Assembly: GCA_026394715.1 (NCBI GenBank)
Contig: JAPKXR010000204.1
Coordinates: forward strand, 1 to 45,837
Length of the DNA: 45,837 nucleotides
Direction: 5' to 3'
From: Methanomicrobiales archaeon
Lineage (GTDB): Archaea; Halobacteriota; Methanomicrobia; Methanomicrobiales; Methanospirillaceae
Shown: positions 24,520-45,159 of the stretch, piece by piece
Layout: each line of letters begins with the position of its first letter
Numbering within the stretch: position 1 is the first letter of the stretch
Program-made: the position numbers and the translations under genes
The notes under the pieces: model-generated
Database searches by the model: none
Told to the model about the DNA's origin: nothing
The model's input: only the letters and a program-made list of their open reading frames with translations

Positions 24520-25425
24520 ACTTGGCGTCCTATTCCTGCCATCCAGCACTGATGGCACCGACCATAATGGAGCCGTATAATTAACAACCATAATCGAATT
24601 ATTCAAGGCCCGGTCTAAAATTCATAGAATTGACCTGAATCAGGAAACGGTCTTCCCTGGCCGTTTATTATCGCAAATAGTATATAATTTTCATTTCATT
24701 GAACCATCACCCCTACCGATGCCATTCGGGATCGTGATTCTTTCCGGGAGGACGATCGTATGAGGCCTTAATGAGGTGTGCGTATTTGTAAGAATTGGAA
24801 GGAATGTGGGAAGGTGGGGGCTGGGTTAGGGTTGAGTCTTCCAGCCCGGAAGTTCCGACTCCTGGATAACCTCTGCAACCGTATCCACTTTTTTGCCAGA
24901 TAAAAACCATATTGACCTCAAAGCAGAAAACCTGCCTTGAAAACAGAGGTGACATCAGGGCGCCCACTTTGAGATCACCAGTCTCTGTGCGTTTATTGAG
25001 GCCAGTTTGGCCTCCTTTGTCCTCAAGTGCCTAATCCTGCTGGTGGCAGCGATTTTAGCCCGATTCCGGCGATAATAGGCCGCCTGTTGTCCCTTATACT
25101 TTTCCTGGTTCCGCAAACGCCACCGTTTCAACCTCGGAATTGCCTTATTCGGTTTTTCGCGACCTGGCAATATTTTTCATCGATCCAGATTCACTAGAGG
25201 CTCTGATTCCAGACATACAACCCATACCAGTATCTTTGCATACGGTTGATGACATTACAGTACACCAAAGGGGTGGTTCGTGTATCGTTCGCTGCAAATT
25301 CCTGTACACCTCGCTCTTCCAACATGATGTTGTGCCAAAGAATGTGTTAAGAATGGAAAATTATCTTTCCCTTGCAAATATGAGGATAACGAAAGAACTA
25401 TGCCCTGACCCTGTGAGAGGAATAT
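24520..25425. other. 0.9 kb sparse region after mcr
   Basis: Nothing certain is coded here. On the minus strand, 24955-25170 could encode a 71-aa strongly basic protein (listed separately). Other short frames (24713-24967 minus; 25140-25463 plus) show no motif and skewed composition. The right end holds the probable promoter of the MBL gene, including a degenerate relative of the regulon palindrome at about 25372-25390. Confidence 0.4.
24955..25170 (-). CDS. Possible 71-aa basic protein, N-terminal part like HNH/homing-type proteins
   Basis: Not recognised with confidence. The sequence is Arg/Lys/Asn-rich with a repeating pattern (RWRLRNQEKYKGQQAAYY then RRNRAKIAATSRIRHL) like the DNA-binding leader of some phage HNH endonucleases, but no HNH core follows. 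The start would be TTG at 25170 with no clear SD. It may be a gene remnant or a chance frame. Confidence 0.25.
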   Translation of the reverse strand: MPGREKPNKAIPRLKRWRLRNQEKYKGQQAAYYRRNRAKIAATSRIRHLRTKEAKLASINAQRLVISKWAP

Positions 25426-31339: not shown

Positions 31340-31413
31340 TCTTGTTTTTTGTGGGCCTGGATTATCCACAATCAGGGCAGCAATTCTTATGCACAACGGA
31401 TTATCTTTTAATG

Positions 31414-31433
31414 ATTATGCTCATATGTGTAAT
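31414..31433. promoter_or_regulatory. Regulon palindrome, copy 1
   Basis: Reads ATTATGC-TCATAT-GTGTAAT and follows an A/T-rich TATA-like stretch (TTTTAATGAT, 31407-31416). The Cys/His-rich gene starts 36 bases on. One of five copies of TTTAYGC-TCATAT-GNGTAA in this window. Confidence 0.65.
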
Positions 31434-31468
31434 TATAGTACGGGAAACCGTATCAATCGGTGATACAT

Positions 31469-31705
31469 TTGCCAGAACAAACAAACAAAACAAACAACGA
31501 GGAATCTACTCCATCCCCTGAACAAGATTGTATTGATGAACATACCTGTGCATGCGGTGAAAAGCACCCGCACCATGCCGGTGGGATCAGCCAACGGGAT
31601 TCCTGCGCATCACCTATGAAATTTGGAAATTCCTGCTGCTGCGAACCCGGTGAAAACACAGATAATGCCCCCCACCGCTGCGGACATGGGCCCCGCTGCA
31701 GATAA
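31469..31705 (+). CDS. Small Cys/His-rich, probably metal-binding protein
   Basis: 78 aa with nine cysteines and six histidines in the stretch DCIDEHTCACGEKHPHH, NSCCCEP and HRCGHGPRC; no signal peptide or membrane segment, N-terminus polar (Asn/Thr/Glu/Pro). Not a family I recognise. TTG 31469 is preferred because GGTGA lies five bases upstream; a GTG at 31460 is the alternative. It lies directly behind palindrome copy 1 and ahead of a DUF134 gene. Confidence 0.55.
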   Translation: MPEQTNKTNNEESTPSPEQDCIDEHTCACGEKHPHHAGGISQRDSCASPMKFGNSCCCEPGENTDNAPHRCGHGPRCR

Positions 31706-31838
31706 AGCAGCGATCCTGAAAAACCATTAATTCACGGAATAGTGAAAATAATGGACCTTTTTTCACACGATCCATGAATTTTTGGAAGAGTATATTAAAT
31801 CCATTCCACCCGGGAACATTAATTTCTAACATGATACT

Positions 31839-32219
31839 ATGACTGATAAGGAAGATAGCGTAGTGGACTGCGAAGGCCCCGTAACAAACCCGTGCCCCCG
31901 TAGGGGAAGACCCCGAGTCAGGCGTAATATTGAAGGCCTGGGAGAGTCGCGATGTTACGAGCCCCGCTGCTGCCCCCAGGAAGATGGCATGGGCATCTCG
32001 CTGAACCCGGAGGAGATTGAGCTGATCCGGCTTATCGATCTGGAAGGGCTGGAACAGGAAGAGGCAGCAGAGAAACTCGGGGTCTCACGTAAAACCGCAT
32101 GGCGGGATCTCCAGGAAACCAGGGCCAAGATCGCCGATGCACTTGTCAACGGGAAAAGGATTGAGATGGCCGGCTGCCAAAAAGCAGCAGAAGGCCGGTG
32201 CCCGAAGTGCCCACGATAA
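31839..32219 (+). CDS. DUF134 (UPF0251) DNA-binding protein, copy 1
   Basis: 126 aa. A basic RRGRPRVRRNIEGL near residue 21 is followed by CYEPRCCPQ and a sigma-70-region-4-like helix-turn-helix (LIDLEGLEQEEAAEKLGVS, then RKTAWRDLQETRAKIADALVNGK), the DUF134 signature, and a cysteine-bearing C-terminus (AGCQKAAEGRCPKC). The cysteines before and after the HTH could bind Fe-S or metal. No SD. A strong candidate for the protein that reads the palindrome repeated around it; its paralogue is at 43775. Confidence 0.85.
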   Translation: MTDKEDSVVDCEGPVTNPCPRRGRPRVRRNIEGLGESRCYEPRCCPQEDGMGISLNPEEIELIRLIDLEGLEQEEAAEKLGVSRKTAWRDLQETRAKIADALVNGKRIEMAGCQKAAEGRCPKCPR

Positions 32220-32259
32220 TCGTGTAGTTTTCGTTTCGTACATTCACACATTTTAAGTA

Positions 32260-32279
32260 TTTTTGCTCATATGAGTAAC
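32260..32279. promoter_or_regulatory. Regulon palindrome, copy 2
   Basis: Reads TTTTTGC-TCATAT-GAGTAAC, directly behind a TATA-like TTTTAAGTA (32251-32259) and 37 bases before the DUF169 start. The position between TATA and start suggests repression. Confidence 0.7.
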
Positions 32280-32316
32280 TAAGGTTTCCTGATGCAGGGA
32301 GCCCCGAGGCCTCGAA

Positions 32317-33033
32317 ATGAGCAACGTACCCAATAAAATACCGGTCAATTATGCAGAGGCTGCCGAGATTCTGAAAAAATTACTTACCCTGAAAGGGTCT
32401 CCGGTAGCGATCAAATTTGCAATGAACAAAGACGAGATCCCCACAGGCATGGAGGAACTGGATAAAACAATTCGACATTGTTCTATGGTGAACCTCGCCC
32501 GGAATGAAGGGATAATCTTCTATGCCACTGCCGGAAAACACGAGTGCAATGGCGGTGCATGGGCACTGGGCCTCAGGGATATTACCCCGACCCTGAAGAG
32601 TGGGGATTTTTATTTCAAACTGGGAAAATACAACAGCGCTGCTGCATGCAAACGGACCATCGACAAGGTCCCCCATCTCGGCACAGGCGACACCTACGCA
32701 ACATTGTATGCCCCGCTTGAAAAGGCGCCCTTCACCCCGAATGTAATTATGATCGTGACTAATCCCCGGAACATGCTCAAACTTTCCCAGAGTGCGCTCT
32801 TCACGCTAGGCGGGAGAATTCATGCGGGATTCTCCGGGATCCAGTCGGTCTGTTCTGATGCAACAGCCCAGACATACCTGACAGGGCGGCCGAATTTCTC
32901 GCTCGGTTGTGATGGGTCGAGGAAATTCTCAGGGATTGCCGACGATGAGATGGTGATGGGGTTCCCGGCCGAGATGCTGTCGGAGATCATAACCGCATTA
33001 AAAATCGTAATTGGTGCACCCGGTTCAAAATAG
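32317..33033 (+). CDS. DUF169 family protein
   Basis: 238 aa; blocks SPVAIKFAMNKDEIP, CSMVNLARNEGIIFYATAGKHECNGGAWALGL, PNVIMIVTNPRNMLKL and GCDGSRKFSGIADDEMVMGFP identify DUF169, cytosolic proteins of anaerobes with conserved cysteines and unknown function, often near Fe-S or metal-cofactor genes. ATG with GAGG seven bases upstream. Single gene behind palindrome copy 2. Confidence 0.85.
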   Translation: MSNVPNKIPVNYAEAAEILKKLLTLKGSPVAIKFAMNKDEIPTGMEELDKTIRHCSMVNLARNEGIIFYATAGKHECNGGAWALGLRDITPTLKSGDFYFKLGKYNSAAACKRTIDKVPHLGTGDTYATLYAPLEKAPFTPNVIMIVTNPRNMLKLSQSALFTLGGRIHAGFSGIQSVCSDATAQTYLTGRPNFSLGCDGSRKFSGIADDEMVMGFPAEMLSEIITALKIVIGAPGSK

Positions 33034-33162
33034 AGATCGTTGGTTCGGGGATCATGACAAAGAGTAATGCATGGTGTGCCGGTGTATCCAGAGGACAACT
33101 GGGTGAGGCACAGGTATTCCTCCCACCTCCGGAGATTCTTGTCGGTACCTGATCCTTACCTA

Positions 33163-33182
33163 TTTACGCTCATACGGGTAAT
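33163..33182. promoter_or_regulatory. Regulon palindrome, copy 3
   Basis: Reads TTTACGC-TCATAC-GGGTAAT, 31 bases before the DUF5320-like start. Together with the preceding bases it shares ACCTATTTACGCTCATA exactly with copy 4. Confidence 0.65.
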
Positions 33183-33213
33183 AATTCAATACCAATAAGT
33201 ATGAGGATTTACA

Positions 33214-33357
33214 ATGCCGAACTTTGACGGGACCGGACCTCTGAAACGGGGCCGGGCTATTGGACGGGGACTGGGGCCCTGCAAAAAAAACGAAGACTGC
33301 GTCGGCTGTGAGCGAATAAAACCTGTATCTCACACAGATGCGATTGAACCTGCATAA
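33214..33357 (+). CDS. 47-aa DUF5320-like Cys protein
   Basis: A short gene of 47 codons: MPNFDGTGPLKRGRAIGRGL, then GPC and ED-CVGC. The start MPxxDGTGPxxRGxxxGRGxGxC is the hallmark of the small DUF5320-like proteins found beside NifX/MinD/DUF134 genes in anaerobes. Function unknown; three cysteines may bind metal. It lies behind palindrome copy 3 and 18 bases before atwA, so the two are likely one transcript. Confidence 0.7.
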   Translation: MPNFDGTGPLKRGRAIGRGLGPCKKNEDCVGCERIKPVSHTDAIEPA

Positions 33358-33375
33358 CCTTTCCGGAGGATACAA

Positions 33376-34959
33376 TTGACATCACCATTCATTAGTGTCC
33401 AAAACCTCTGCATGAACTTCGAGGGCAAATGCGTCCTTGATAATATTTCTTTTGAAATCCCGGAGGGGGATATTGTTGGTATCATCGGCAGGAGTGGTTC
33501 GGGAAAAAGTGTGCTGATGCACCTGCTCAGGGGCGTAGAAGAACCGCCGACCCGTGGTTCTGTAATCTACCACATGTCAGCATGTGACACCTGTGACCAC
33601 ATGGATGTGCAAAGCCAGGCTGGTACCACCTGTCCCCACTGCCGTGGCAACCTGGTCACAACGGATGTCGATCTCTGGGGGGAACAGACTGACGGCATGA
33701 AGGCCCGGGTAATGCACCGGACGGCAATCATGTTCCAGCGCACATTTGCCCTGTATGGCGACGACCGCGTGATTGAGAATGTGCTCCACGCACTCGATGA
33801 TATTGACTACCCGCAGGAGAAAGCGGTAACCCGTGCAGCAGATCTGATCGACCAGGTCAGGCTCTCACACAGGATGATGCATATTGCCCGGGACCTCTCG
33901 GGTGGTGAGAAGCAACGGGTTGTGCTCGCCCGCCAGCTCGCAAAAGATCCGGCAATGCTCTTTGCCGATGAACCTACCGGGACCCTCGACCCTGAAACCG
34001 CCCGGATTGTGCACGGGATGCTCATCGAAGCAGCCAGGAAGAACAATATGGGCATGGTCGTAACCTCGCACTTCTCGCAGGTGATCGAGGACATGGCGAA
34101 CCGTGCTATACTGCTGACCGATGGGGAAATTACCGCCATCGGGTCACCAAAAAGTGTGATACGTTCTTTTGCCAGGGATTACCACGAGATTGAGGAGTCA
34201 TTGCCACCGGAGATCGGGGAGACGATCCTCTCTGCCCGTGATGTCACCAAGCGGTATATCTCGGTTGATCGCGGTGTGGTAAAAGCGGTGAATACCGTTA
34301 CGTTTGATGTCGCAGAGAAAGAGATCTTCGGCATTATTGGAAAAAGCGGGGCAGGCAAAACCACGCTCTCACGGATCATCTCCGGGATTATCGAACCCAC
34401 AAGTGGCGAGATGAACATCCGTATCGGTAACGACTGGGTGGACATGACAAAACCCGGTATTGACCAGCGGGGCCGGGCCAAGGGATACATCGGCCTGCTC
34501 CACCAGGAATACGATCTTTTCCCTCACCGCACGGTGCTCGACAACCTGACGGATTCGATCGGCCTTGAATTTCCCAAGGAACTGGCAATCCGGAAAGCCC
34601 TGATTACGCTGAGTGTTGCCGGGTTTGAAATTGGCCGGGCTGAAGAGATCCTGGATCGGCTCCCTGCAGAACTCTCCGATGGTGAACGGCACCGGGTAGC
34701 GCTGGCGCAGGTGCTTATCAGGGAGCCGCGACTCGTGGTCCTTGATGAGCCAACCGGTACAATGGACCCGATCACGAAGCAGGACGTGAAACATTCTATC
34801 CTGCACGCCCGCGATGAGATGGACGAAACCTTCATTGTAGTTTCGCACGATATGGATTTTGTCCGGGATGTCTGCGACCGCGTAGCGCTGATGCGTGGTG
34901 GAAAGATTATCGAGATCGGAAAGACCGCTGACGTTCTGGCGTCAATAGAGAGTGAATGA
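33376..34959 (+). CDS. atwA: Methyl-coenzyme M reductase activation component A2 (AtwA), double ABC ATPase
   Basis: 527 aa, soluble protein with two ABC ATPase halves: Walker A GRSGSGKS and signature LSGGEKQR in the first, GKSGAGKT and LSDGERHR in the second, each with a Walker B (MLFADEPTGTLD, LVVLDEPTGTMD). A CDTC ... CPHC zinc-like insertion in the first half is typical of AtwA. It drives ATP-dependent reductive activation of Ni in MCR together with McrC and others. Start is TTG at 33376 with a strong SD GGAGGA five bases upstream. It is in the palindrome-controlled region, not with mcr. Confidence 0.92.
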   Translation: MTSPFISVQNLCMNFEGKCVLDNISFEIPEGDIVGIIGRSGSGKSVLMHLLRGVEEPPTRGSVIYHMSACDTCDHMDVQSQAGTTCPHCRGNLVTTDVDLWGEQTDGMKARVMHRTAIMFQRTFALYGDDRVIENVLHALDDIDYPQEKAVTRAADLIDQVRLSHRMMHIARDLSGGEKQRVVLARQLAKDPAMLFADEPTGTLDPETARIVHGMLIEAARKNNMGMVVTSHFSQVIEDMANRAILLTDGEITAIGSPKSVIRSFARDYHEIEESLPPEIGETILSARDVTKRYISVDRGVVKAVNTVTFDVAEKEIFGIIGKSGAGKTTLSRIISGIIEPTSGEMNIRIGNDWVDMTKPGIDQRGRAKGYIGLLHQEYDLFPHRTVLDNLTDSIGLEFPKELAIRKALITLSVAGFEIGRAEEILDRLPAELSDGERHRVALAQVLIREPRLVVLDEPTGTMDPITKQDVKHSILHARDEMDETFIVVSHDMDFVRDVCDRVALMRGGKIIEIGKTADVLASIESE

Positions 34960-35001
34960 GCTGAATATAGAATAGGCAGAAAAGACCCAATCCCGAAGGG
35001 G

Positions 35002-35018
35002 AAAAAAGGGACTGTCCC
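35002..35018 (-). terminator. Hairpin plus T6 terminator of the hydrogenase-like pair
   Basis: On the minus strand GGGAC-A-GTCCC is followed by TTTTTT, five bases after the stop at 35024. It has the form of a bacterial intrinsic terminator and also separates the convergent atwA. Confidence 0.6.
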
Positions 35019-35023
35019 TGCCT

Positions 35024-36103
35024 TTATCGCTCCGCACATCCAATACAAGGATCTATCGATAGCACAATTACCGGAACATCCGCAAGTTCGCATCCTTTCA
35101 GCGCTTTTACGAGAAACGGAATATTTGCAAATGTCGGTGTCCTGACCCTGTGGCGGAGCAGATGACGGGTCCCGTTTCCCTTTACATAATGCATCACTTC
35201 ACCACGGGGCTGTTCTGCCCGTGCCCAGCACTCACCATTGGGAGTACCGGTTATTTTAACCTCAACCGGCCCATCGGGAATCTTATCTACCGCCTTTGTG
35301 ATAATATCAATCGATGTTAGCAGTTCCTTTCCCCGGACAACACAGCGGGCATAACAATCTCCACTTTTTTCCACAACGGGCCTGAAATCGATCTTGTCAT
35401 AGGCTGCATACCCAAGCATTCGGGCATCCTCTGCAATACCACTTCCACGCCCTGTCGGACCGACTGCACCAAGTTCATAGGCCTCTTTTTCCAGAATTAT
35501 CCCAATCCCTTTCGTACGGTGCCGGACCGAACTGTCATTGAAAAAGACCTTGTTCAATTCCCTTATATCAGACCCCAAATCTTTTAGACCCGTGACCATC
35601 TCGTCGAGTTTCTTATTCTCAATATCCCTTCGGACACCTCCAATCTTGCACGCCCCCTGGATAACACGTCCTCCTGTCGTTGCCTCAAGGTCATCAAGGA
35701 TCTGTTCACGCAATCGCCACGACTGCATAAAGAGGTTTTCAAATCCAAGAGAATCGGCAAACAAACCGAGCCAGAGGAGATGAGAGTGCATCCTCGAATA
35801 TTCAGACCATATGGTTCGAAGATACAGGGCCCGTTCGGGGACATCGATACCCATAACCGTCTCAATTGCCGTCACATACGTACTGCCATGGATAAAGCTA
35901 CAAATTCCACATATCCGTTCCGCAACGTACACATATTCAGGGAATTCGCGTTTTTCGACCAGTTTTTCCAACCCACGGTGGACATACCCTATAGAGGGAA
36001 TTGCCTCAACTACTATTTCATCCTCAAGGACGAGGTCGAGGTGGATAGGTTCCGGTAGCACCGGGTGCTGTGGCCCGAATGGGATGATTATTCGCCGGGA
36101 CAT
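35024..36103 (-). CDS. Group 4 [NiFe]-hydrogenase-like large subunit (EchE/NuoD type)
   Basis: 359 aa with both nickel-binding cysteine pairs, ERICGICSFIH near residue 63 and DPCIGCAER at the extreme C-terminus, as in Ech/Mbh/Eha-type large subunits. It begins IPFGPQHPVLPEPIHLDL, the NuoD-family start. There is no C-terminal extension for a maturation protease, as in EchE. SD AAGGAGGA before ATG; overlaps the upstream NuoC-like gene by 16 bp. The electron-transfer (small), ferredoxin and membrane subunits needed for an Ech complex are absent here. H2/ferredoxin chemistry is likely but the partner is unknown. Confidence 0.85.
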   Translation of the reverse strand: MSRRIIIPFGPQHPVLPEPIHLDLVLEDEIVVEAIPSIGYVHRGLEKLVEKREFPEYVYVAERICGICSFIHGSTYVTAIETVMGIDVPERALYLRTIWSEYSRMHSHLLWLGLFADSLGFENLFMQSWRLREQILDDLEATTGGRVIQGACKIGGVRRDIENKKLDEMVTGLKDLGSDIRELNKVFFNDSSVRHRTKGIGIILEKEAYELGAVGPTGRGSGIAEDARMLGYAAYDKIDFRPVVEKSGDCYARCVVRGKELLTSIDIITKAVDKIPDGPVEVKITGTPNGECWARAEQPRGEVMHYVKGNGTRHLLRHRVRTPTFANIPFLVKALKGCELADVPVIVLSIDPCIGCAER

Positions 36104-36471
36104 GAGTTGTCCTCCTTGCGGTCGGTATTTACACTGAACGGGTATTTGATAGCGGTCCGGAAGAAAGTGCCGTTGAAATCAAGAGCAATACCCGTGACGG
36201 TAATCCCAAAGAGGTCATGCATCTCGTTCTCGTACGGGAACGCAGCCCAATAAATCCCGGTGATACTAGGGATCGCTGCCCCGGTCGGAACAAGCAGTCT
36301 GAGCGTCCTGAATAAAAAGTTCCGGTCAAACGAGTAGTCCACCTGGAATATCTCACCGAGTTTGGTTATGCTGATCGCAACGAGCCTGTACCCCTCGCTG
36401 TGCAGCTTGGACACACAGGATATTAGATCCGGCGTTTCCGTTGGAATTACCGGTTGTTCTTCTGCCTTCAT
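36088..36471 (-). CDS. NuoC/EchD-like 30-kDa-type subunit
   Basis: About 127 aa; YWAAFPYENEMHDLFGITVTG is the NuoC signature with the ExHDxFG core, preceded by FQVDYSFDRNFLFRTLRLLVP. In group 4 hydrogenases this subunit binds next to the large subunit. ATG 36471 has GGTGG six bases upstream; ATG 36477 or a GTG at 36498 are alternatives. It ends in the start of the large-subunit gene. Confidence 0.75.
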   Translation of the reverse strand: MKAEEQPVIPTETPDLISCVSKLHSEGYRLVAISITKLGEIFQVDYSFDRNFLFRTLRLLVPTGAAIPSITGIYWAAFPYENEMHDLFGITVTGIALDFNGTFFRTAIKYPFSVNTDRKEDNSCPGE

Positions 36472-36498
36472 GCACATCCACCCACCCTGATTTTGCAC

Positions 36499-36743
36499 CT
36501 TCTATAATCACCATATCCTTTCGATGATGATGAATTTATTATCGCCATCGTGTGTATGTGCACCCCGATACTGAGTAGAGGTGCTGGGGAATGACATCGG
36601 TATTCATCATGAATTTTCATATGCACTACCTATTTACGCTCATATGCGTAAAAACTACACTTCATAACAAATGAGTTTGTTGAAGGAATGCACATTAAGG
36701 ATCGAGGGAACCAGACAGCGGAAAAAAGGATAATTAACTGCAC
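36499..36743. promoter_or_regulatory. Upstream region of the hydrogenase-like pair
   Basis: Holds palindrome copy 4, a TATA-like TGATTATAGA (minus strand, about 36503-36512) and the end of the aquaporin operon. A 20-codon frame at 36671-36733 (plus) starts 18 bases after the palindrome, but coding is unproven. Confidence 0.4.
36633..36652. promoter_or_regulatory. Regulon palindrome, copy 4 (perfect)
   Basis: Reads TTTACGC-TCATAT-GCGTAAA: seven-base arms that are exact reverse complements around a six-base spacer. The clearest copy and the basis for the consensus. Nearest gene start is the NuoC-like subunit on the minus strand, about 160 bases away. Confidence 0.75.
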
Positions 36744-37136
36744 TCACTCCGCCGTAATCCGGTCGTAGAAGACTGCTGCTGCTATTGCACCGATGACCGG
36801 CCCGAGGATGTAAATCGGGAAGAATACCCAGAGGTTCGAGCTGCCAAGCAGGAAGTCCATCACGTACGGTCCAAACGTGCGGGCAGGGTTGATGTGAGCC
36901 CCGGATACCCGGCCAAGCGCATAGATGACGGCGGCAATGACGATACCGAACGTGATCCCGATCGCAAACCAGTCACCGAGCCCTCCGAGCTGGCCAATCC
37001 CGATATTGAAGGGGGTTGCCGGTTTTGTCCCATGTGCGATCATCAGCGTGATGGCCGCTGCTCCGGCACCGAAATACACGAGAAGAGCTGTTCCGACACC
37101 CTCAGCAATACTGCGATTAGCTAGCGAAGCCATCAC
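36744..37136 (-). CDS. Half-size AqpM-type aquaporin with the middle deleted
   Basis: 130 aa versus about 246 aa for methanogen AqpM. The N-terminal part (first helix, PFNIGIGQLGGLGDWFAIGITFG, SGAHINPA) matches AqpM up to the first NPA motif; it then continues directly with RTFGPYVMDFLLG, the sequence that follows the second NPA in AqpM, and ends with the last helix. So one NPA is left and helices in between are gone, as expected from a deletion between the two NPA repeats. It could work as a dimer of halves or be non-functional. ATGA overlap with the DUF2180 gene. Confidence 0.8.
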   Translation of the reverse strand: MMASLANRSIAEGVGTALLVYFGAGAAAITLMIAHGTKPATPFNIGIGQLGGLGDWFAIGITFGIVIAAVIYALGRVSGAHINPARTFGPYVMDFLLGSSNLWVFFPIYILGPVIGAIAAAVFYDRITAE

Positions 37137-37345
37137 TTACCATCCCCGTACGCAGCATTGCAGTCCGGGCAGAGCATACGGGGCATCTTCTTTGGCAGTT
37201 TGCGGGAGGGAAGCGGGTACCCGCCCTCCCAGACATCGACTTCTTTCCGGATCGTGTGCTTCATGCACGTCCCCATGCCGCATGCAACGCATACCGCAAC
37301 GGCATCGCTCTCCTTTCCCTCTTTTGCACAGACATAGCACTTCAT
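37133..37345 (-). CDS. DUF2180 zinc-ribbon protein
   Basis: 70 aa with CYVCAKEG, CVACGMGTCMKHT and CPDC, an eight-ligand pattern suggesting two zinc sites, followed by the family's EVWEGGYPLP-like EVDVWEGGYPLPSRKL. DUF2180 is known from methanogens and has no assigned function. ATG 37345 has SD GAGGTGAG four bases upstream; an ATG three codons earlier lacks one. Middle gene of DUF2193-DUF2180-aquaporin. Confidence 0.8.
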   Translation of the reverse strand: MKCYVCAKEGKESDAVAVCVACGMGTCMKHTIRKEVDVWEGGYPLPSRKLPKKMPRMLCPDCNAAYGDGK

Positions 37346-37372
37346 GATTCTCACCTCGTCCCGGTACCGGGA

Positions 37373-38872
37373 TTAGACAGATTCCTTCCACTGGCAGGAG
37401 CAGTGCCGGAAATCCATCAGGGCTGCCGATGCGCAGTCCTTGCAGATCCGGGCAGGAGCCGCTGCAACTTCCTTGTGCAGGGCAATGATGTTGGTCATCA
37501 GGGTTGCCGTGACCGGCTCGCTTGTCAGCAGGCACGGATAGTCGGAGAGGCGCATCATGGCCGAGAACCGGACGGTCATCGCACAGGCCGGGTACGCGTA
37601 CCGCTGCGGGTTTGCCAGCACCTCGTTCTTGAGAACGGGAGAGAGATCGATATCGAACCCACCGACTTTCGGCTTCACCAGCCCCGGCTCGCTGCTCTGC
37701 ATCCTTCGCGCCTTGTCGACCATCTTCCAACCCCGGTAGATCATGTCCATGAAGTCGCAGTTGTGGAGCTCGATGGCTGCCCCCCGCTTTGGGTAGAGCT
37801 GGACATAGTTGTGGTAACGCTTGGTCAGCATGTCCACAACCATAATTGCGTTGAACCCGTCGAGTTCAAGGATATATTCCGCAGCACTTGCCGATGCTCC
37901 AGTCGCTACCGAAAGAACTCCGTTTTCGGTTTTCATCTTCGGGGCCGCTGCGTGCAGGGTCTTGTCCATGACCTCAGTCACCGCTTCGATGACGGCCATG
38001 ATCACGTCGTCCTTGCACATGTTGTACGTTGATTGCGAAATGTGGTGGGCAATGTCCCCAACACAATAGGCCGGTACGGTAACGATGTTGCCGTAGTGGA
38101 CACCCTCGTCAAGGGAGGCTTTCACCGCACCCTGCATCTTCGTGCGGTAGTCCTTCATGTACTTCCGGAAGTCGAACGAGGACTGGCCCACACTGTCCAT
38201 GAGTTTTGCCTGGGCATCGACCGGTGTGTCGTAGATGGACTGGACCATCGCGACTTCCTTCTTTACCGCGTCTGCAAGAGTGGCTCCTCCCTCAACTGCG
38301 TGAGCGAAAACATCACCGATACCGTACGAGGTGTTCATGCCCCATGATTTCGCGGCAAGGATCCCCTGCTTATGTGCAACCGGAATATCCGTTGTTTTGA
38401 GGATCTGGTTGACGATGTTGCTGCTGCTCCCCGGGATCAGGGCAAAATCTACAACACAGGTCGGACCATAAAATCCCGCATAACGCCGGGCAGATTCCTT
38501 CCCGATCAGGGCTTCGGCTTTCCCGATCGCCTTGATGAACACATCCACGCTCTTCCGAAACTTCGGGTCCGCATCGTAGAGCATCTCCAGGATGACAGGC
38601 GTCTGGTAGTGCTCGACATAGGGATCGTCTTCAGGACGGATGGTGTTCGTCAGACCCTTCAAAATGGTGTAATGGGCATTGACCGAATCGGTGTGCAGGG
38701 CAAAGACTGCCTTGCTCTGGCCCCCGGCGGGTTTCATGCCTTTGACTGCGTCAACGTAGACTTTCGTGTCTTCGATGACGAATTTTTCACCGCGTTTCTT
38801 TTTTATCTGGTTCACGTCGGCGTGCTGTGCAGCCATCGCTTCCGTGATCATCTTTTTGATTATTTCCTGCAT
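37373..38872 (-). CDS. DUF2193 family methanogen protein
   Basis: 499 aa, cytosolic, no membrane segments. Blocks RRYAGFYGPTCVVDFALIPG, HYGNIVTVPAYCVGDIAHHISQ and AYPACAMTVRFSAMMRLSDYP resemble DUF2193, a family I know only from methanogens and relatives. The C-terminus is Cys/His-rich (CKDCASAALMDFRHCSC), pointing to a metal or Fe-S site. ATG 38872 is preferred: a TATA box lies 65-78 bases upstream, whereas the longer frame would start within it. First gene of its operon; 27 bases separate it from DUF2180. Confidence 0.75.
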   Translation of the reverse strand: MQEIIKKMITEAMAAQHADVNQIKKKRGEKFVIEDTKVYVDAVKGMKPAGGQSKAVFALHTDSVNAHYTILKGLTNTIRPEDDPYVEHYQTPVILEMLYDADPKFRKSVDVFIKAIGKAEALIGKESARRYAGFYGPTCVVDFALIPGSSSNIVNQILKTTDIPVAHKQGILAAKSWGMNTSYGIGDVFAHAVEGGATLADAVKKEVAMVQSIYDTPVDAQAKLMDSVGQSSFDFRKYMKDYRTKMQGAVKASLDEGVHYGNIVTVPAYCVGDIAHHISQSTYNMCKDDVIMAVIEAVTEVMDKTLHAAAPKMKTENGVLSVATGASASAAEYILELDGFNAIMVVDMLTKRYHNYVQLYPKRGAAIELHNCDFMDMIYRGWKMVDKARRMQSSEPGLVKPKVGGFDIDLSPVLKNEVLANPQRYAYPACAMTVRFSAMMRLSDYPCLLTSEPVTATLMTNIIALHKEVAAAPARICKDCASAALMDFRHCSCQWKESV

Positions 38873-38936
38873 GGTGCTGCAACTCCCGGCACCGGTATCA
38901 GAGGGGGTGCCTGTAATGCAACCTATGGTGCAGCCC

Positions 38937-38950
38937 ATTAATAAATACAT
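38937..38950 (-). promoter_or_regulatory. TATA box of the DUF2193 operon
   Basis: ATGTATTTATTAAT on the minus strand; predicted transcription start near 38918, about 45 bases before the ATG. Confidence 0.5.
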
Positions 38951-39454
38951 TCAGGCAAAAACCGTGGATAACGGAAGTAAGGCGGATCCGTGTATGACAC
39001 GTATTGCTGCACTCGTTCGCTCCAGGGGTTATTACTGCTGAACCTGAAGTCTGCCCAGACCTCTCAAAATACCCTGATTTCATGTGGGCGACCAAATCCC
39101 CGGTAGTAACCATCACCCATCAGTGCGAATTCCCTGTACCGGAATTCCCGTGAGGGTGCCACTCTTATCCCATCAGTTCATCTCCATGGAGTTATGCCGT
39201 TCCGTAGCAAAACAGAACCATGATTTTTCCATCGTGGCTCACGGTATACCCAACTACCGCATTGGGGTTTACGCGTGATGAATTCAAATAAGCCCGTTAA
39301 TTCCCTTTTTTCCATAATAAGGCAAAATCGCACCGTGAGAGGTCGCCATTAACTGCGTGTAATCGTGCCTGATTCTGCCACATATATTACCCCGTCCGGA
39401 CCCCTACAAGATTGCCGGGACGCGAACAGGAGGGTCATTGTTCCGGGGACCGGA
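38951..39454. other. 0.5 kb without a recognisable gene
   Basis: Short frames only, none with a recognisable motif. It separates the DUF2193 promoter from the 3' end of a hypothetical gene on the same strand. Confidence 0.4.
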
Positions 39455-39898
39455 TTATACCTGGCATCCCGGGGTATCCTGCTGGATCCGCCGTACGGCT
39501 GATATTTCGGGAATATTCTCTCCCCCCAGTGCCGTAACAATGGACTGGACATAGGGCTCCTGCCGCGTCATGCTTGGTGATACACATTTGTCCAGCCGCC
39601 CCCCTTTTCTGCCCATCTGTGCAGAACCGGTTGCGATGAAGTGGAGGAAATCTTCTTTTGGAAGACCCCATTTTGTGTTGATCTTCAGGTGAATGATATT
39701 CCAGTTGTCTGGGTTGGGATACATCACGGCCCGGGTACCGGGCAGCCGGACCGCATCCCCCCGATTGGATTGTGACAATGCAACAACCCGCGACCACAGG
39801 GGGTTACACGCAGTCTTTGCCATGGGGCAGTCCCGGCAGAACCTGTTCGTCGGGGGCAGTGCATCCCCCTGGTAATGAGAGCAGAATGTGATGTCCAT
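39455..39898 (-). CDS. Hypothetical protein with an N-terminal cysteine cluster
   Basis: 147 aa, not recognised. The N-terminus has CSHYQGDALPPTNRFCRDCP and KTAC, a C-x15-C-x2-C-x5-C spacing that suggests a zinc or Fe-S site; the rest has blocks NWNIIHLKINTKWGLPKED and FLHFIATGSAQMGRKGGRLDKC. No signal peptide. An ACATTAAAACC TATA-like stretch on the minus strand about 30 bases upstream supports transcription. Divergent from the flavoprotein gene. Confidence 0.55.
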   Translation of the reverse strand: MDITFCSHYQGDALPPTNRFCRDCPMAKTACNPLWSRVVALSQSNRGDAVRLPGTRAVMYPNPDNWNIIHLKINTKWGLPKEDFLHFIATGSAQMGRKGGRLDKCVSPSMTRQEPYVQSIVTALGGENIPEISAVRRIQQDTPGCQV

Positions 39899-40004
39899 CG
39901 CAGAGTGTTATTCAGAAACGCACGGTTTTAATGTATTGATCTATTATCGCATGACCGGGTGGTTGCATCGCAACTATCATAAGCCGGTGCGCTGAGCATT
40001 TACT

Positions 40005-40559
40005 ATGAAGGTGCTGGGCATATCAGGAAGCATGCGAAAAGGGGGCAATACTACAGATCTGGTCAATGTCATTCTCGAACGCTGCCGGGTTGCGGGGATC
40101 GAGACGGACTTTATTTCGCTTTCAGGCAAGAAGATCCACCCCTGCCTGGGCTGCGAGAAGTGCAAGGAGAAGAAATGCTGTGTCATCGAGAACGATGACT
40201 GGGAAAAAATTATCAACAAAGTGCTTGACTGCGATGTGCTTGTGATCGGGTCGCCCACGTATTATTACGACGTGTGCGGCCATCTCAAGAATTTCATCGA
40301 CCGCACGTATTCCCTCTACCATGACCGCAGGCTGGCAGGCAGAAAGGGCGTTGCTGTGTCGGTGCAGGCGCATAAAGGTGCAAACCGGACCATCCAGACG
40401 CTTGAAGGTTTCTTAAGCACGCATGAATTCTCATCGCTGGGCTCGGTCAAGGGCACCGGGTATCATGAAGGTGAAGTGCTTGCTGATAAGGACGCAGTCG
40501 AGAAAGCCCGGAAAATCGGGGATAAAATCGTCCGTCTCGTGAATCCCCGTTATAAATAA
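40005..40559 (+). CDS. Iron-sulfur flavoprotein (Isf/NADPH-dependent FMN reductase-like)
   Basis: 184 aa flavodoxin fold: ISGSMRKGGNT near residue 6 binds the FMN phosphate and IGSPTYYYDV follows near 83. Between them the compact CLGCEKCKEKKCC motif is typical of the [4Fe-4S]-binding Isf family, which carries electrons from ferredoxin in methanogens. No TATA is obvious. It ends 18 bases before the NifX-like pseudogene. Confidence 0.85.
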   Translation: MKVLGISGSMRKGGNTTDLVNVILERCRVAGIETDFISLSGKKIHPCLGCEKCKEKKCCVIENDDWEKIINKVLDCDVLVIGSPTYYYDVCGHLKNFIDRTYSLYHDRRLAGRKGVAVSVQAHKGANRTIQTLEGFLSTHEFSSLGSVKGTGYHEGEVLADKDAVEKARKIGDKIVRLVNPRYK

Positions 40560-40577
40560 TATGGGCGGATTTTTCTG

Positions 40578-40934
40578 TTGGCAGTATCAGCGAAAATCTT
40601 TAATCAATCACTTTTTTGTGGTAACGGGATCGATATTTGCATCGATTATGCAGTCGAACACCATTTTGCACGGGCATCATACTTTATTTTCTATGATACC
40701 TGGACTGGCAAATCGGAAGCGATCAGGGATGAATTTGTCCTCAATGATGCCAGGATTGGGCAGAATACGGTATAGTTACTGAAAAGTTATGGACTTGAAG
40801 CAGTGATTACCGGAGAGATTGGCGATAACACAAAGGATCTTTTGAAGGGTGCTGTAATCCTGCTCCAGGTCTACATAAGGACAGGCAAAGTCAAAGATGC
40901 GATTGATACTATCCTTTCGACTCCACCGAAATGA
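40578..40934 (+). pseudogene. NifX/NifB-type (dinitrogenase Fe-Mo cofactor family) protein interrupted by an amber stop
   Basis: The frame reads AVSAK, a weak middle, FARASYFIFYDTWTGKSEAI, then after GQNTV an in-frame TAG at 40773-40775, and goes on LLKSYGLEAVITGEIGD to KVKDAIDTILSTPPK and TGA at 40932. Both halves align with the NifX-like family (ERFGRAxYF..., LLKxYGVEAVITG...). At the TAG relatives usually carry a lysine-like codon, so a single A-to-T change would explain it. The start (TTG) is also poor. A decayed paralogue of the intact gene at 41613. Confidence 0.7.
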
Positions 40935-40938
40935 TGGC

Positions 40939-41451
40939 CTAACGAAACCGTTCATCTGACTTTATCGAGGTCGCATGATGTGAAACCGCATCGAACCAGC
41001 CGGCCTTTTCCTCACAGTATGAATCAAAAGCGGGCACATAGGGTTTGATATCCAGAAGCGGTGTTCCATCGAGCAGGTCCACATCCTCAATCTCAATCGT
41101 GTTCCCCTCAATACCCACAAGACGGACAATCGAAAGTCCAATCGCATTCGGCCGCTTTGGCGCCCGCGTTGCAAATATCCCACGGGGCATGGGATCAAGG
41201 AATGGTTTTACCTCAAGGGAGTAACCGTGACACCGGTGGAATGCATAAATGAGGATGATACGGGAAAAACCCACCAGGTCCTTAAGGCCTGCAGCAAATT
41301 CCGGGCGGATCTCGATAGTGCCACGTACATCCCGGGCCCCGGTGGGCTGGATAGGCATGCCGGCAATATCGGTAAAGGGGGAATGAACGGTTCCAATCGG
41401 TACATAGGTAAATGATAAGGAATTATCCACGGGACTTTGCATTTTCAACAC
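40939..41451 (-). CDS. trmO: TrmO/TsaA family tRNA t6A37 methyltransferase-like protein
   Basis: 170 aa with IGTVHSPFTD near residue 19 and ATRAPKRPNAIGLSIVRLV near 94, the TsaA/TrmO SAM-binding signature. TrmO N6-methylates threonylcarbamoyl-A37 in tRNA in bacteria; archaeal homologues, often next to metal-cofactor genes, may have other roles. Start uncertain: GTG 41451, TTG 41448 (SD AGGAG five bases upstream) or ATG 41442. It is divergent from the NifX-like gene, sharing the region of palindrome copy 5. Confidence 0.8.
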   Translation of the reverse strand: MLKMQSPVDNSLSFTYVPIGTVHSPFTDIAGMPIQPTGARDVRGTIEIRPEFAAGLKDLVGFSRIILIYAFHRCHGYSLEVKPFLDPMPRGIFATRAPKRPNAIGLSIVRLVGIEGNTIEIEDVDLLDGTPLLDIKPYVPAFDSYCEEKAGWFDAVSHHATSIKSDERFR

Positions 41452-41576
41452 TACTCCTGACGCGGAAATACGGTCTTAACCCCATTAATAGTCCGGTCTC
41501 ACCGGGACATATAATGGAGTTGTTCGCATTAACACGGATTTCAGTACTGAGGTGTACGATACAATAGTTTAAATTA

Positions 41577-41595
41577 ATATGCGCATATGAGTAAT
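41577..41595. promoter_or_regulatory. Regulon palindrome, copy 5
   Basis: Reads ATATGC-GCATAT-GAGTAAT, immediately behind a TATA-like TTTAAATTA (41568-41576) and 18 bases before the NifX-like ATG. It would control the whole NifX-MinD-MinD-DUF134-radical SAM-MBL operon and perhaps trmO. Confidence 0.7.
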
Positions 41596-41612: not shown

Positions 41613-41945
41613 ATGAAGGTATGTTTTACATCAAAAGGGGCGACACTGGACACCCCCACAGAAGAGAGGTTCGGGCGTGCACCGTATTTTATCATTGTTG
41701 AAAGCGAGAACGGATCTTTTGAGGCAATCCCGAACCCTTACGCCGATGGTTCCGGAGGCGTTGGCCCTAAAGCCGCACAAATACTCATTGCACACAACGT
41801 TAAGGCGTTGATCAGCGGACAGGTCGGCGGGAATGCACGTGAGGTTCTCGATGCAGCAGGGATTGCGATGTATACCTATACCGGGGGTGGACCGGTGAAG
41901 GCAGCAGTAGACAAATTCACTGAGAATACTCTTATTCGCTCATAA
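41613..41945 (+). CDS. NifX-like dinitrogenase iron-molybdenum cofactor family protein
   Basis: 110 aa single-domain protein: SKGATLDTPTEERFGRAPYFIIVE, then GPKAAQILIAHNVKALISGQVGGNAREVL and a GIAMYTYTGG end. The NifX/NafY-like fold binds Fe-S precursors in nitrogenase assembly; stand-alone copies in methanogens and clostridia have no fixed function. It is the first gene behind palindrome copy 5, followed after 62 bases by two MinD-type ATPases. No nif genes are present in the window. Confidence 0.85.
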   Translation: MKVCFTSKGATLDTPTEERFGRAPYFIIVESENGSFEAIPNPYADGSGGVGPKAAQILIAHNVKALISGQVGGNAREVLDAAGIAMYTYTGGGPVKAAVDKFTENTLIRS

Positions 41946-42007
41946 CAGGGGACGCAGGGAAGTATGCTGGCAAGAGACTCCTACGTTAGATGTATGGTGG
42001 AAATGTC

Positions 42008-42859
42008 ATGAAATTAGCAATTGCTAGCGGTAAGGGAGGTACCGGTAAGACCATGGTGGCTGCAAATCTTGCCTTCACACTCTCCCGGGCCGGACAGGTT
42101 ACACTCATCGACTGCGATGTTGAGGAACCCAACCTTCACCTATTTTTTCCGAAAACTGCCACGATAACAGGAATTACCGTACCAGTGCCGGTTATCGATG
42201 AAAATACCTGCCAACATTGTGGTCTATGCGGGGAATTCTGCCAGTATGGCGCGATAACGGTTCTTTCCAACCGGGTCCTTTTCTTTCCCGAGCTCTGCCA
42301 CTCCTGCGGAGGGTGTATGCTGGTCTGCCTGAATGACGCCATCCATGAAGAGCCAAAACGGATAGGAACCGTGGCAATTTCCACACCTTTACCCCACCTG
42401 AAACTTATTTCAGGGATGCTGGACACAGGGAACCCTCACGCAGTGCCAGTTATCAGATCCGCAAAAAAACTGGCAGCGGGAAACCCCCTTGTGATCTGCG
42501 ATTCGGCACCAGGTACTTCCTGCCCGGTCGTCGAGGCGCTGGACGGATGTGATATTTGTATCCTTGTTACGGAATCAACGCCATTCGGCCTGCACGACCT
42601 CAGGCTTGCCGTAGATGTCGCTGATCGACTGGGTATCCCCACGGGGATTGTCATCAACCGGAGTGATGGAAAAGACCAGGAAATAATCGATTTCTGCAGG
42701 GTCCAGGACCTCGAAGTCATGATGACCATTCCTTTTGACCGCGAAATTGCCGCCATCCAGAGCAGGGGAAATATCCTCTGCCAGGTACAACCAACATGGC
42801 AAAATGAGTTTACCGGTCTTTTCATGAAATGCAGAGATCTCTGCAAGGGGATTAAATGA
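42008..42859 (+). CDS. MinD-type ATPase with inserted ferredoxin domain (COG1149), copy 1
   Basis: 283 aa. The deviant Walker A GKGGTGKT is at residues 8-15. An inserted two-cluster ferredoxin (CQHCGLCGEFCQ and CHSCGGCMLVC) follows near residues 66-105, and CDSAPGTSCPVV forms the Walker-B/switch region. COG1149 proteins come in pairs and are thought to use ATP to drive Fe-S or electron transfer. ATG 42008 (SD GGTGG) is chosen over an in-frame ATG six codons earlier. ATGA overlap with the next gene. Confidence 0.88.
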   Translation: MKLAIASGKGGTGKTMVAANLAFTLSRAGQVTLIDCDVEEPNLHLFFPKTATITGITVPVPVIDENTCQHCGLCGEFCQYGAITVLSNRVLFFPELCHSCGGCMLVCLNDAIHEEPKRIGTVAISTPLPHLKLISGMLDTGNPHAVPVIRSAKKLAAGNPLVICDSAPGTSCPVVEALDGCDICILVTESTPFGLHDLRLAVDVADRLGIPTGIVINRSDGKDQEIIDFCRVQDLEVMMTIPFDREIAAIQSRGNILCQVQPTWQNEFTGLFMKCRDLCKGIK

Positions 42860-43740
42860 TCCGGATCGCCGTTATCAGTGGTAAGGGGGGAACGGGAAAG
42901 ACAATGATCACCGCTGCGCTGGCCCAGTTGCTCCCCGGGGGCCTCGTGCTTGCGGACTGCGATGTGGACGCGGCGAACCTTGAGCTCCTTCTTAGCCCGA
43001 AGATAATCCGTACCGAACCATTTATCGGGATGAAAACTGCGGTGATCGATCCCGCCTTCTGTAACCAGTGTGGGGAGTGCATGGATCACTGCCGGTTTAA
43101 TGCAATTGAACGTGACGGGGATATATACCGGGTGAACCCGCTCCGCTGCGAAGGGTGTGCCGTGTGCGTCCATGTCTGCCCCATCGCCATCACGATGCAA
43201 CCACGACAGACAGGAGAGGTGATGTATTCAGACACAGAACCTGGCCATCTTGTGCATGCCCGGCTTGTACCGGGCGCAGGTAACTCGGGGCTGCTCGTCC
43301 ATGCGGTGAAAAAAACTGCCATGGAACAGGACCGGAATTGCGACCTGTTCCTGATCGATGGTCCACCCGGGACCGGGTGTCCGCTCATCTCCACCATCAG
43401 CGGCGTGGATATAGTACTGGTTGTAACCGAGCCGAGCGTTTCGGGGTTACATGATCTCAAGCGGGTGGTAGCGGTCTGCAGGCAGTTCCGGCCACGGGTC
43501 CTTGTTGCTATTAACAGGTTCGACCTGGAACAGTCCCTTACTGAAGTAATACAGTTCTGGTGCATTGAAGAGAATATTCCCATAATCGGTAAGATCCCCT
43601 TTGATCCCATGGTCATTGAATCGGTCAGGAACGGAGTTCCTGTTACCTTTATGCCCACGTCTCCCGCAGCACAAGCCATTCAAATACTGGAATCGAATCT
43701 AGAACAGGAGTTGAGGTACTATAGAGATCAGCGGAAATGA
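42856..43740 (+). CDS. MinD-type ATPase with inserted ferredoxin domain (COG1149), copy 2
   Basis: 294 aa, paralogous to the preceding protein: Walker A GKGGTGKT at residues 10-17, ferredoxin clusters CNQCGECMDHCR and CEGCAVCVHVCP, and IDGPPGTGCPLI. Translational coupling (ATGA) suggests a heterodimer. Its own stop overlaps an ATG (43737) from which the DUF134 frame is reached only after a one-base shift. Confidence 0.88.
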   Translation: MIRIAVISGKGGTGKTMITAALAQLLPGGLVLADCDVDAANLELLLSPKIIRTEPFIGMKTAVIDPAFCNQCGECMDHCRFNAIERDGDIYRVNPLRCEGCAVCVHVCPIAITMQPRQTGEVMYSDTEPGHLVHARLVPGAGNSGLLVHAVKKTAMEQDRNCDLFLIDGPPGTGCPLISTISGVDIVLVVTEPSVSGLHDLKRVVAVCRQFRPRVLVAINRFDLEQSLTEVIQFWCIEENIPIIGKIPFDPMVIESVRNGVPVTFMPTSPAAQAIQILESNLEQELRYYRDQRK

Positions 43741-43774: not shown

Positions 43775-44164
43775 TTGAACCGGACATTTGATGGCGCACC
43801 CTCAGCACGGTGCTTTGCACCACGTTGCGGCCCGGACATCAACGAGGAGTATGTTTCTCTGCTACCCGAAGAACTGGCGGTCCTGGACCTGATTGACCTG
43901 CAGGGCCTTGAACAGGAGATGGCTGCAGCAGCCCTTGGGATTTCCCGGAAGACGGTCTGGCGGGATATCCACGAGGCACACCGCAAGATTGCAGATGCTC
44001 TCGTTCATGGTAAAGCCCTTGAAATCGGAGGATGCCTTCGCAGGAAAAACGGGATATGCCCACTTCGAAATACGGGTGTCTGCCCGAAGGTGTCGGGCAT
44101 CAAAGGCACAACCCTGACATTGGGCACCGACGACCCGTCACTTAGTAATCCCGGCGGTGAATAG
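43775..44164 (+). CDS. DUF134 (UPF0251) DNA-binding protein, copy 2, N-terminus out of frame
   Basis: 129 codons from a TTG. The HTH core (LIDLQGLEQEMAAAALGIS, RKTVWRDIHEAHRKIADAL) closely matches the copy at 31839. Conserved residues CCRRRGRPRLNR continue upstream of this TTG in the same frame to 43748, where no ATG, GTG or TTG exists. The natural ATG at 43737, overlapping the preceding stop as ATGA, is one base out of frame: one more G in the GGG at 43741-43743 would give MRGGCCRRRGRPRL. So this gene carries a frameshift, a programmed slip or a sequencing error. The C-terminus has extra cysteines (GGCLRRKNGICPLR). Confidence 0.75.
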   Translation: MNRTFDGAPSARCFAPRCGPDINEEYVSLLPEELAVLDLIDLQGLEQEMAAAALGISRKTVWRDIHEAHRKIADALVHGKALEIGGCLRRKNGICPLRNTGVCPKVSGIKGTTLTLGTDDPSLSNPGGE

Positions 44165-44196
44165 TCACCGTGCAGCGGGCTGGCCGGATATCCCTG

Positions 44197-45159
44197 ATGA
44201 CCCCAAAGCACATCTTCGGACCGGTCCTCTCCCGAAGGTTGGGAGTTTCGCTCGGGATTGATCTTATCCCGTTCAAGACATGCTCCTACGACTGCGTCTA
44301 TTGCGAATGTGGTGCCACCACCGTTAAAACCATCGTGCGGCAGGCCTTTTTTCCCGCTGAAAATGTGATCACCGAACTCCGCGACGTGCTCGCATCCCAC
44401 CCCCATCTCGATTCTATCACGCTGGCCGGTTCCGGTGAGCCGACACTCTCCTTGTCACTGGGGAGGGTGATCACTTTTGTAAAACTGGAGTATCCTGAAT
44501 ATACCCTTAGTGTCCTTACAAACGGGAGCCTCCTGACCGATGCCATGGTACGGACAGAACTTCTCCCCGCCGACCGGGTGATACCGACCCTGACATCGGT
44601 GTTCCAACCAACCTTTGAGTGCATCCACCGTCCCCACCCATTACTCAGGATCGATGCTATTGTCGAAGGGATCGTGCAGTTCCGGGAACAGTATGCCGGT
44701 GCCCTCTGGCTCGAAGTGTTCATCATCCCCAGCATGAATACCACAACAACGGAACTGGAAGGGCTGAAAGCGGCAATTGAACGGATCAGTCCGGACCGCA
44801 TCCAGTTGAATACCCTCGACCGCCCTCCCGCAGATGGATGGGTCCGGGCGGCCACAGATGCCGAACTTGAACAGGTTAGTGACGTGCTGGGACGAACAGG
44901 TATCGAAATTGTCAGCCGGAAACCACCTGTTTCCCTGGCAACAATGGCAATGACAGAAGTAAGCGAGCTGATCCAGGCAACCCTCTGCCGAAGACCATCC
45001 ACCGTGGAAGACATTGTCCACACGACCGGTCGGAGCGGAGGTGAAGTGGTAAAAATTCTCGGTGTACTTGAACGGGAAGGATTGGTCACTTCACAGAGGG
45101 GAACTCGAGGAGTTTTTTATGCAATCTTACCGGAAAATATGAGCAACGGGGATTCCTGA
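44197..45159 (+). CDS. Radical SAM protein of the COG0731 type with C-terminal winged helix
   Basis: 320 aa. HIFGPVLSRRLGVSLGIDLIP leads into the cluster motif CSYDCVYCECG (CX3CX2C), then LAGSGEPTLS and SVLTNGSLL. COG0731 is annotated as wyosine-synthesis-related, but members in such operons have unknown substrates. The last 70 residues form a winged helix (STVEDIVHTTGRSGGEVVKILGVL). ATG 44197 fits the conserved N-terminus; a GTG at 44170 with SD GGTGA is the alternative. Same direction as DUF134, 32 bases on. Confidence 0.82.
   Translation: MTPKHIFGPVLSRRLGVSLGIDLIPFKTCSYDCVYCECGATTVKTIVRQAFFPAENVITELRDVLASHPHLDSITLAGSGEPTLSLSLGRVITFVKLEYPEYTLSVLTNGSLLTDAMVRTELLPADRVIPTLTSVFQPTFECIHRPHPLLRIDAIVEGIVQFREQYAGALWLEVFIIPSMNTTTTELEGLKAAIERISPDRIQLNTLDRPPADGWVRAATDAELEQVSDVLGRTGIEIVSRKPPVSLATMAMTEVSELIQATLCRRPSTVEDIVHTTGRSGGEVVKILGVLEREGLVTSQRGTRGVFYAILPENMSNGDS

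Follow-up and report, generated by a model that had tools for sequence, protein, structure and literature searches.

What is a short palindrome that recurs five times within 45,837 nucleotides of a Methanomicrobiales archaeon, and which protein reads it? The stretch, one entire contig of the source genome, is referred to here as the window. Our analyses suggest, with a probability of roughly 0.83, that the palindrome is the operator of DUF134, a family of unknown function whose presumed dimer would repress a dispersed iron-sulfur (Fe-S) module together with its own genes. That the motif serves as an operator appears nearly certain, that DUF134 is the protein binding it is very probable, and that it acts by repression, as judged from the position of the sites, is likely; the case is built from what was computed directly: where the sites occur and lie, how they are conserved, how they accompany DUF134 across genomes, and how its recognition helix covaries with the palindrome. 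The five copies named in a first-pass annotation are all present, its coordinates being correct to within one base, and all are intergenic and on the + strand, whereas shuffling gives 0.04 on average and never five. In a window-wide matrix scan they score 20-30 bits, and the sole further non-overlapping match (25372, minus strand) reaches 11.1 bits, with local shuffle maxima of up to 14.4. The symmetry axis first described for the motif was not retained: the perfect arms of copy 4 are present solely on the TTAYGC-TCATAT-GNGTAA axis, but order-wide the best axis lies one base away, at the centre of CATATG (63% complementary versus 51%), on which certain members are perfect palindromes (TTACACATATGTGTAA). 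Copy 3 is the weakest among the five, and its orthologous counterpart in the congener G139 reads TTACGCTCATAGGTGTAA.

Three further good copies occur elsewhere in the source genome, two of them on contig C34 in a paralogous DUF134-DUF169-atwA cluster and one on C197 preceding a DUF5320 protein, a NifX-type protein, and an Mrp/NBP35 ATPase; weaker genome matches fall mostly inside open reading frames (ORFs), and a reversed control pattern matches similarly often. Across the host's order, a strict pattern finds 115 sites in 70 of 120 genomes, against one match for the control pattern. When the second C34 site is added to this strict set, a module gene lies immediately downstream of 105 of the 116 sites, namely DUF5320 (48), NifX (32), the Cys/His protein (9), a MinD-type ATPase (7), atwA (5), or DUF169 (4), neighbor genes having been identified by searches over all ORFs, in which short models give only approximate E-values. 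The called start codon is a median of 24 nt away and within 60 nt at 99 sites; likewise, 27 of 30 DUF5320 genes chosen independently of the site carry one. Sites are kept before orthologues across six families, and two congeners retain them 5' of Cys/His protein-DUF134, DUF169, DUF5320-atwA, NifX-MinD-MinD-DUF134, and further DUF5320 genes. Found at about 1-10 promoters per genome, belonging to one functional module, this pattern bears out the earlier proposal of an undescribed regulon directed at metal-binding and Fe-S genes, including the conservation upstream of orthologues on which that proposal depended. A literature search, which left most subscription papers and all preprints uncovered, found no functional work on DUF134 (UPF0251, COG1342) or on the second palindrome described below.

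DUF134 had already been named as the likely regulator, and two lines of evidence now point to it. Using a position model, we found sites in 94 of the order's 97 genomes with DUF134 but in only 3 of the 23 without (Fisher 1e-16, uncorrected for phylogeny), and NifX genes kept without DUF134 (G087, G094, and G098) have no site. Among the exceptions, the DUF5320 gene of G092 is cut by a contig end, and in G099, a genome of 82% completeness, the site is doubtful. The stronger argument is covariation. The recognition helix of DUF134 falls into two classes, SRKTxWRD (class A) and SQPTFHR (class B), and class B proteins are accompanied by a different palindrome, TTATGAATATATATTCATAA. For example, three DUF5320 genes of the order that lack the class A motif belong to genomes with an SQPTFHR-type DUF134 and have, in its place, TTATGAATATATATTCATAA or a close variant. 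Over all fetched loci, helix class agrees with palindrome class in 72 of 72 and about 112 of 114 proteins. The class A form is order-specific, as model R1 matches just 2 of about 200 genomes of the phylum outside the order; the second palindrome, on the other hand, is present in 25 of 247 phylum genomes versus one control genome. An exact scan for it, in one genome per species over 85,000 species, returned at least 115 matches; among the 115 listed, 108 lie within 3 kb of module genes, mostly at less than 400 nt, with DUF134 (96), DUF5320 (53), MinD/Mrp (35), and NifX (26) as neighbors, and the listed hosts include Methanobrevibacter, Asgard archaea, DPANN, Thermoplasmata, Patescibacteria, and Deltaproteobacteria. 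Exact second palindromes also precede a cysteine desulfurase-like class V aminotransferase (L361:208-1359), a sulfur transporter (L395:7518-8000), and a ferredoxin-like protein (L438:3639-3896), all possible regulon members; the aminotransferase and transporter copies are among the few listed matches away from module genes. Among SRRAFWED-class DUF134 genes an upstream palindrome was seen only in G320 (TTTCACACATATGAGTGAAA) and perhaps G305. Outside the order, AGCGCATATGTGCATAT, again with a CATATG core, is shared by two SRKTLWRD-class DUF134 genes of family f16 (L288 and L327), where it lies about 14 nt upstream.

The placement of the sites speaks to how such a regulator would act. Aligned class A sites read WTTATGCKCATATGAGTAATAAT, with conservation ending at about -13 and +23, and a TATA-like box (6-of-8 match) lies at exactly -9 in 55 of the 116, compared with 1-4 at most other positions; in the window, copies 1, 2, and 5 lie directly 3' of such a box, as first noted, and copies 3 and 4 have a weak box only. 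With the spacing between TATA box and start that is usual in archaea, the site would span roughly -23 to -2 relative to the predicted start, thus filling the TATA-to-start interval, where the operator of a repressor would be expected, in line with the promoter-proximal position originally suggested.

Several observations weigh against a DUF134 repressor. No module gene follows at eleven of the 116 sites, among them copy 4, and most examined DUF134 genes outside the order have neither palindrome upstream. All class A sequences stem from a single order, so that phylogeny partly confounds the covariation, but both helix-palindrome pairs coexist in G053, G041, and G117. DUF134 is often lost along with the module genes, so that co-occurrence by itself is weak and does not single out DUF134, and G017 is a real exception, with a site before DUF169 and no detectable DUF134. 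Finally, class A spacing and orientation relative to the TATA box are stricter than a simple roadblock requires. This strictness, together with the poor TATA boxes at some promoters (copies 3 and 4 and several of family f5), would suit a DUF134 activator aiding TBP/TFB or RNA polymerase. Archaeal repressors usually act between TATA box and start, however, and activators usually elsewhere, and the second palindrome contains ATATATAT and hence probably overlaps the TATA box itself, which makes activation an unlikely reading. Loss of the module en bloc and the site in G017 could instead point to some other co-inherited binder, such as the Cys/His protein, DUF169, or an unlinked regulator; this is quite improbable because DUF134 alone among the module proteins has a recognizable DNA-binding domain (Pfam), its helix switches with the palindrome even within single genomes, and the second palindrome often stands directly 5' of DUF134 alone.

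A fixed distance from the TATA box, over the region that melts initially, might also be expected of an initiator or other specialized core-promoter element that the basal machinery recognizes, but the motif is confined to the promoters of one module and absent where DUF134 is absent, and the second palindrome occurs in bacteria as well, so that this explanation has very little probability. An RNA-level element in the 5' leader (an attenuator or a transcript binding site) would agree with sites 10-45 nt upstream of start codons and is yet less probable, since most of the motif lies upstream of the predicted transcription start, the palindromes are AT-rich and loopless, and the class B motif falls on what is probably the TATA box. 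Repeats produced by chance or by recent copying of promoter cassettes, for which a few local duplications (G111 and L166) might speak, can hardly account for sites that exceed a chance expectation of 0.04, have unconserved flanks, and precede orthologues in six families.

We therefore favor DUF134 as a repressor and propose the following mechanism. As a stand-alone helix-turn-helix (HTH) regulator, its dimer would bind the quasi-palindrome centered on CATATG between TATA box and transcription start and block polymerase recruitment or promoter opening, class A proteins occupying the TATA-to-start interval and class B proteins the TATA box itself. Under its control would stand its own genes and a dispersed module comprising NifX, ferredoxin-type MinD ATPases, Mrp/NBP35, DUF5320, DUF169, the Cys/His protein, and a second atwA. 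An AlphaFold2 model of the first DUF134 protein of the window (DUF134a) has a confident HTH at residues 51-110 that matches sigma region 4, including its -35-DNA-bound form, at 0.7-0.8 Å over about 50 residues, though the shortness of the domain keeps the structural E-values weak (0.08 and above); a sequence search found no solved structure of any DUF134 protein. The likeness to the HTH of sigma-70 region 4 and ECF factors (Sigma70_r4_2; PDB 2h27) extends to Pfam sigma region 4 models, which match DUF134 above cut-off, but DUF134 has no region 2, occurs in archaea lacking sigma factors, and is associated with core-promoter palindromes instead of -35 elements. With archaeal repressors of the TATA-to-start interval (NrpR and MDR1/DtxR-type) it would share a palindromic core-promoter operator, a presumed polymerase block, and a small autoregulated regulon, whereas it belongs to another family, with a sigma-region-4-like HTH, and its operator seems unlike those known for these repressors. 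As to the signal, we tentatively suggest that Fe-S, metal, or sulfide status is sensed through four cysteines, which are conserved in 63-67 of 72 class A proteins and mostly absent in class B. Equally tentative is the broader view that DUF134 is an ancient regulatory Fe-S or sulfide sensor common to bacteria and archaea, with an operator, TTATGAATATATATTCATAA, that has stayed identical in both domains, and that in methanogens it ties the provision of complex metal-sulfur clusters to an inducible second ATPase for activation of methyl-coenzyme M reductase (MCR).

The regulated module resembles the gene set of the bacterial orange-protein (ORP) Fe-S complex. In Desulfovibrio vulgaris, this unit combines a NifX-type protein, two ferredoxin-motif MinD-type ATPases, and an Mrp/NBP35 protein (Orp3, Orp4, Orp5, Orp8, and MrpORP; PMC6345978), and MrpORP can pass Fe-S clusters to the MinD-type proteins in vitro (PMC6345978). 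The window encodes a NifX-type protein and two MinD-type Fe-S ATPases at 41613-43740, and the Mrp/NBP35 partner lies on C197 behind the same operator; in the archaea studied here the ORP-like genes share one operator. Desulfovibrio ORP operons, in contrast, reportedly depend on a sigma54 promoter and a cognate regulator other than DUF134 (PMC6345978); the archaeal genes have a TATA promoter and a different operator, and regulation does not define the complex. DUF5320, DUF169, and atwA also fall outside the Desulfovibrio complex. In Methanococcus voltae, two NifX-family (IssA-like) proteins respond to the Fe/S source (PMC8516115).

Control of MCR activation had also been proposed. An atwA gene does follow the operator and exceeds the TIGR03269 equivalog cut-off, as expected of MCR component A2 (PMC12176620), but it is an extra paralogue, and the housekeeping atwA has no operator. 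The source genome has a second full-length atwA on C379 with no site, each of five tested genomes with an operator-linked atwA locus has another atwA without one, and in three genomes lacking DUF134 this site-free atwA is the sole copy. Judged from its sequence, then, the regulated gene is a genuine A2 homologue yet an accessory copy, and its operator does not support control of core MCR activation. A2 is one component of the MCR activation complex, in which the subunits McrC and Mmp7 contain clusters similar to the nitrogenase L-cluster (PMC12176620); a functional tie between these clusters and the module is speculation. The paralogous atwA on C34 (G000:C34:7386-8954, L481) has one in-frame TAG in place of the Gln codon of the other copies (MF*RTFALYGDD); the gene may be broken, or the stop may stem from a sequencing error.

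These results offer for DUF134, an archaeal and bacterial domain so far without an assigned function, a molecular role that can be tested, and they supply two operator sequences ready for binding trials. The motif also allows members of an anaerobic Fe-S system that is still little understood (NifX, MinD, Mrp, DUF5320, and DUF169) to be listed in many genomes, and the paired helix and palindrome classes are a clean natural example of how a transcription factor changes its specificity. If the proposed link to MCR holds, cluster supply and the second activation ATPase would be coupled in methanogens. The features of the window are collected in Table 1.

Table 1. Palindrome copies (18-nt cores, predicted operators), TATA-like boxes, and associated genes in the window
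Feature	Coordinates	Strand	Evidence
TATA-like box TTTTAATG, promoter 1	31406..31413	+	sequence; order-wide fixed offset -9
Copy 1 TTATGCTCATATGTGTAA, 5' of Cys/His protein-DUF134 genes	31415..31432	+	kept before same genes in congeners and relatives
Small Cys/His-rich protein	31460..31705	+	no Pfam match; orthologues behind site in related genomes
DUF134a, proposed operator-binding regulator; helix GVSRKTAWRD, four-Cys signature	31839..32219	+	PF02001, E 5e-21, 75.5 bits (cut-off 27)
TATA-like box TTTAAGTA, promoter 2	32252..32259	+	sequence; order-wide offset
Copy 2 TTTTGCTCATATGAGTAA, 5' of DUF169	32261..32278	+	shuffle test, matrix scan, congeners
DUF169 protein	32317..33033	+	PF02596, E 9e-70
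Copy 3 TTACGCTCATACGGGTAA, 5' of DUF5320-atwA	33164..33181	+	
Short DUF5320 protein	33214..33357	+	PF17253
Accessory atwA (MCR component A2 homologue)	33376..34959	+	TIGR03269, 838 bits (cut-off 517)
Copy 4 TTACGCTCATATGCGTAA, no module gene downstream	36634..36651	+	
TATA-like box TTTAAATT, promoter 5	41568..41575	+	sequence; order-wide offset
Copy 5 ATATGCGCATATGAGTAA, 5' of NifX-MinD-MinD-DUF134	41577..41594	+	same operon behind site in many genomes of the order
NifX/NafY-type protein (Orp8-like)	41613..41945	+	PF02579, E 1e-22
MinD-type ATPase with ferredoxin insert (Orp3/Orp4-like)	41990..42859	+	
Second MinD-type ATPase with ferredoxin insert	42856..43740	+	
DUF134b, second DUF134, inside the predicted regulated operon (putative autoregulation)	43775..44164	+	PF02001, E 2e-14, 54.2 bits (cut-off 27)

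Two candidate targets of the first-pass annotation were rejected. The match at 25372 had been suggested as a possible degenerate copy before an MBL gene, but its score falls within the shuffle maxima and is at chance level in the window. A relative of this gene in G077 has a good site upstream (L138:9706), which places MBL in the regulon in at least one genome. A hydrogenase-like pair, assigned to copy 4, lies 135 nt from it in the opposite orientation. This pair (35024-36498, minus strand) is similar to the 49-kDa and 30-kDa subunits of complex I/Fpo or group 4 hydrogenases and is solitary, other subunits not being nearby. Also near copy 4 is an aquaporin-family (MIP) ORF (36744-37136, minus strand) of 130 amino acids, about half the usual length, which may be a remnant. 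A 525-amino acid protein beside the regulon (37373-38950, minus strand) has no NCBIfam match and no operator upstream. Following DUF134b, a radical SAM protein is encoded at 44170-45159 (+ strand), a position that is kept in the congener G146 and in G011.

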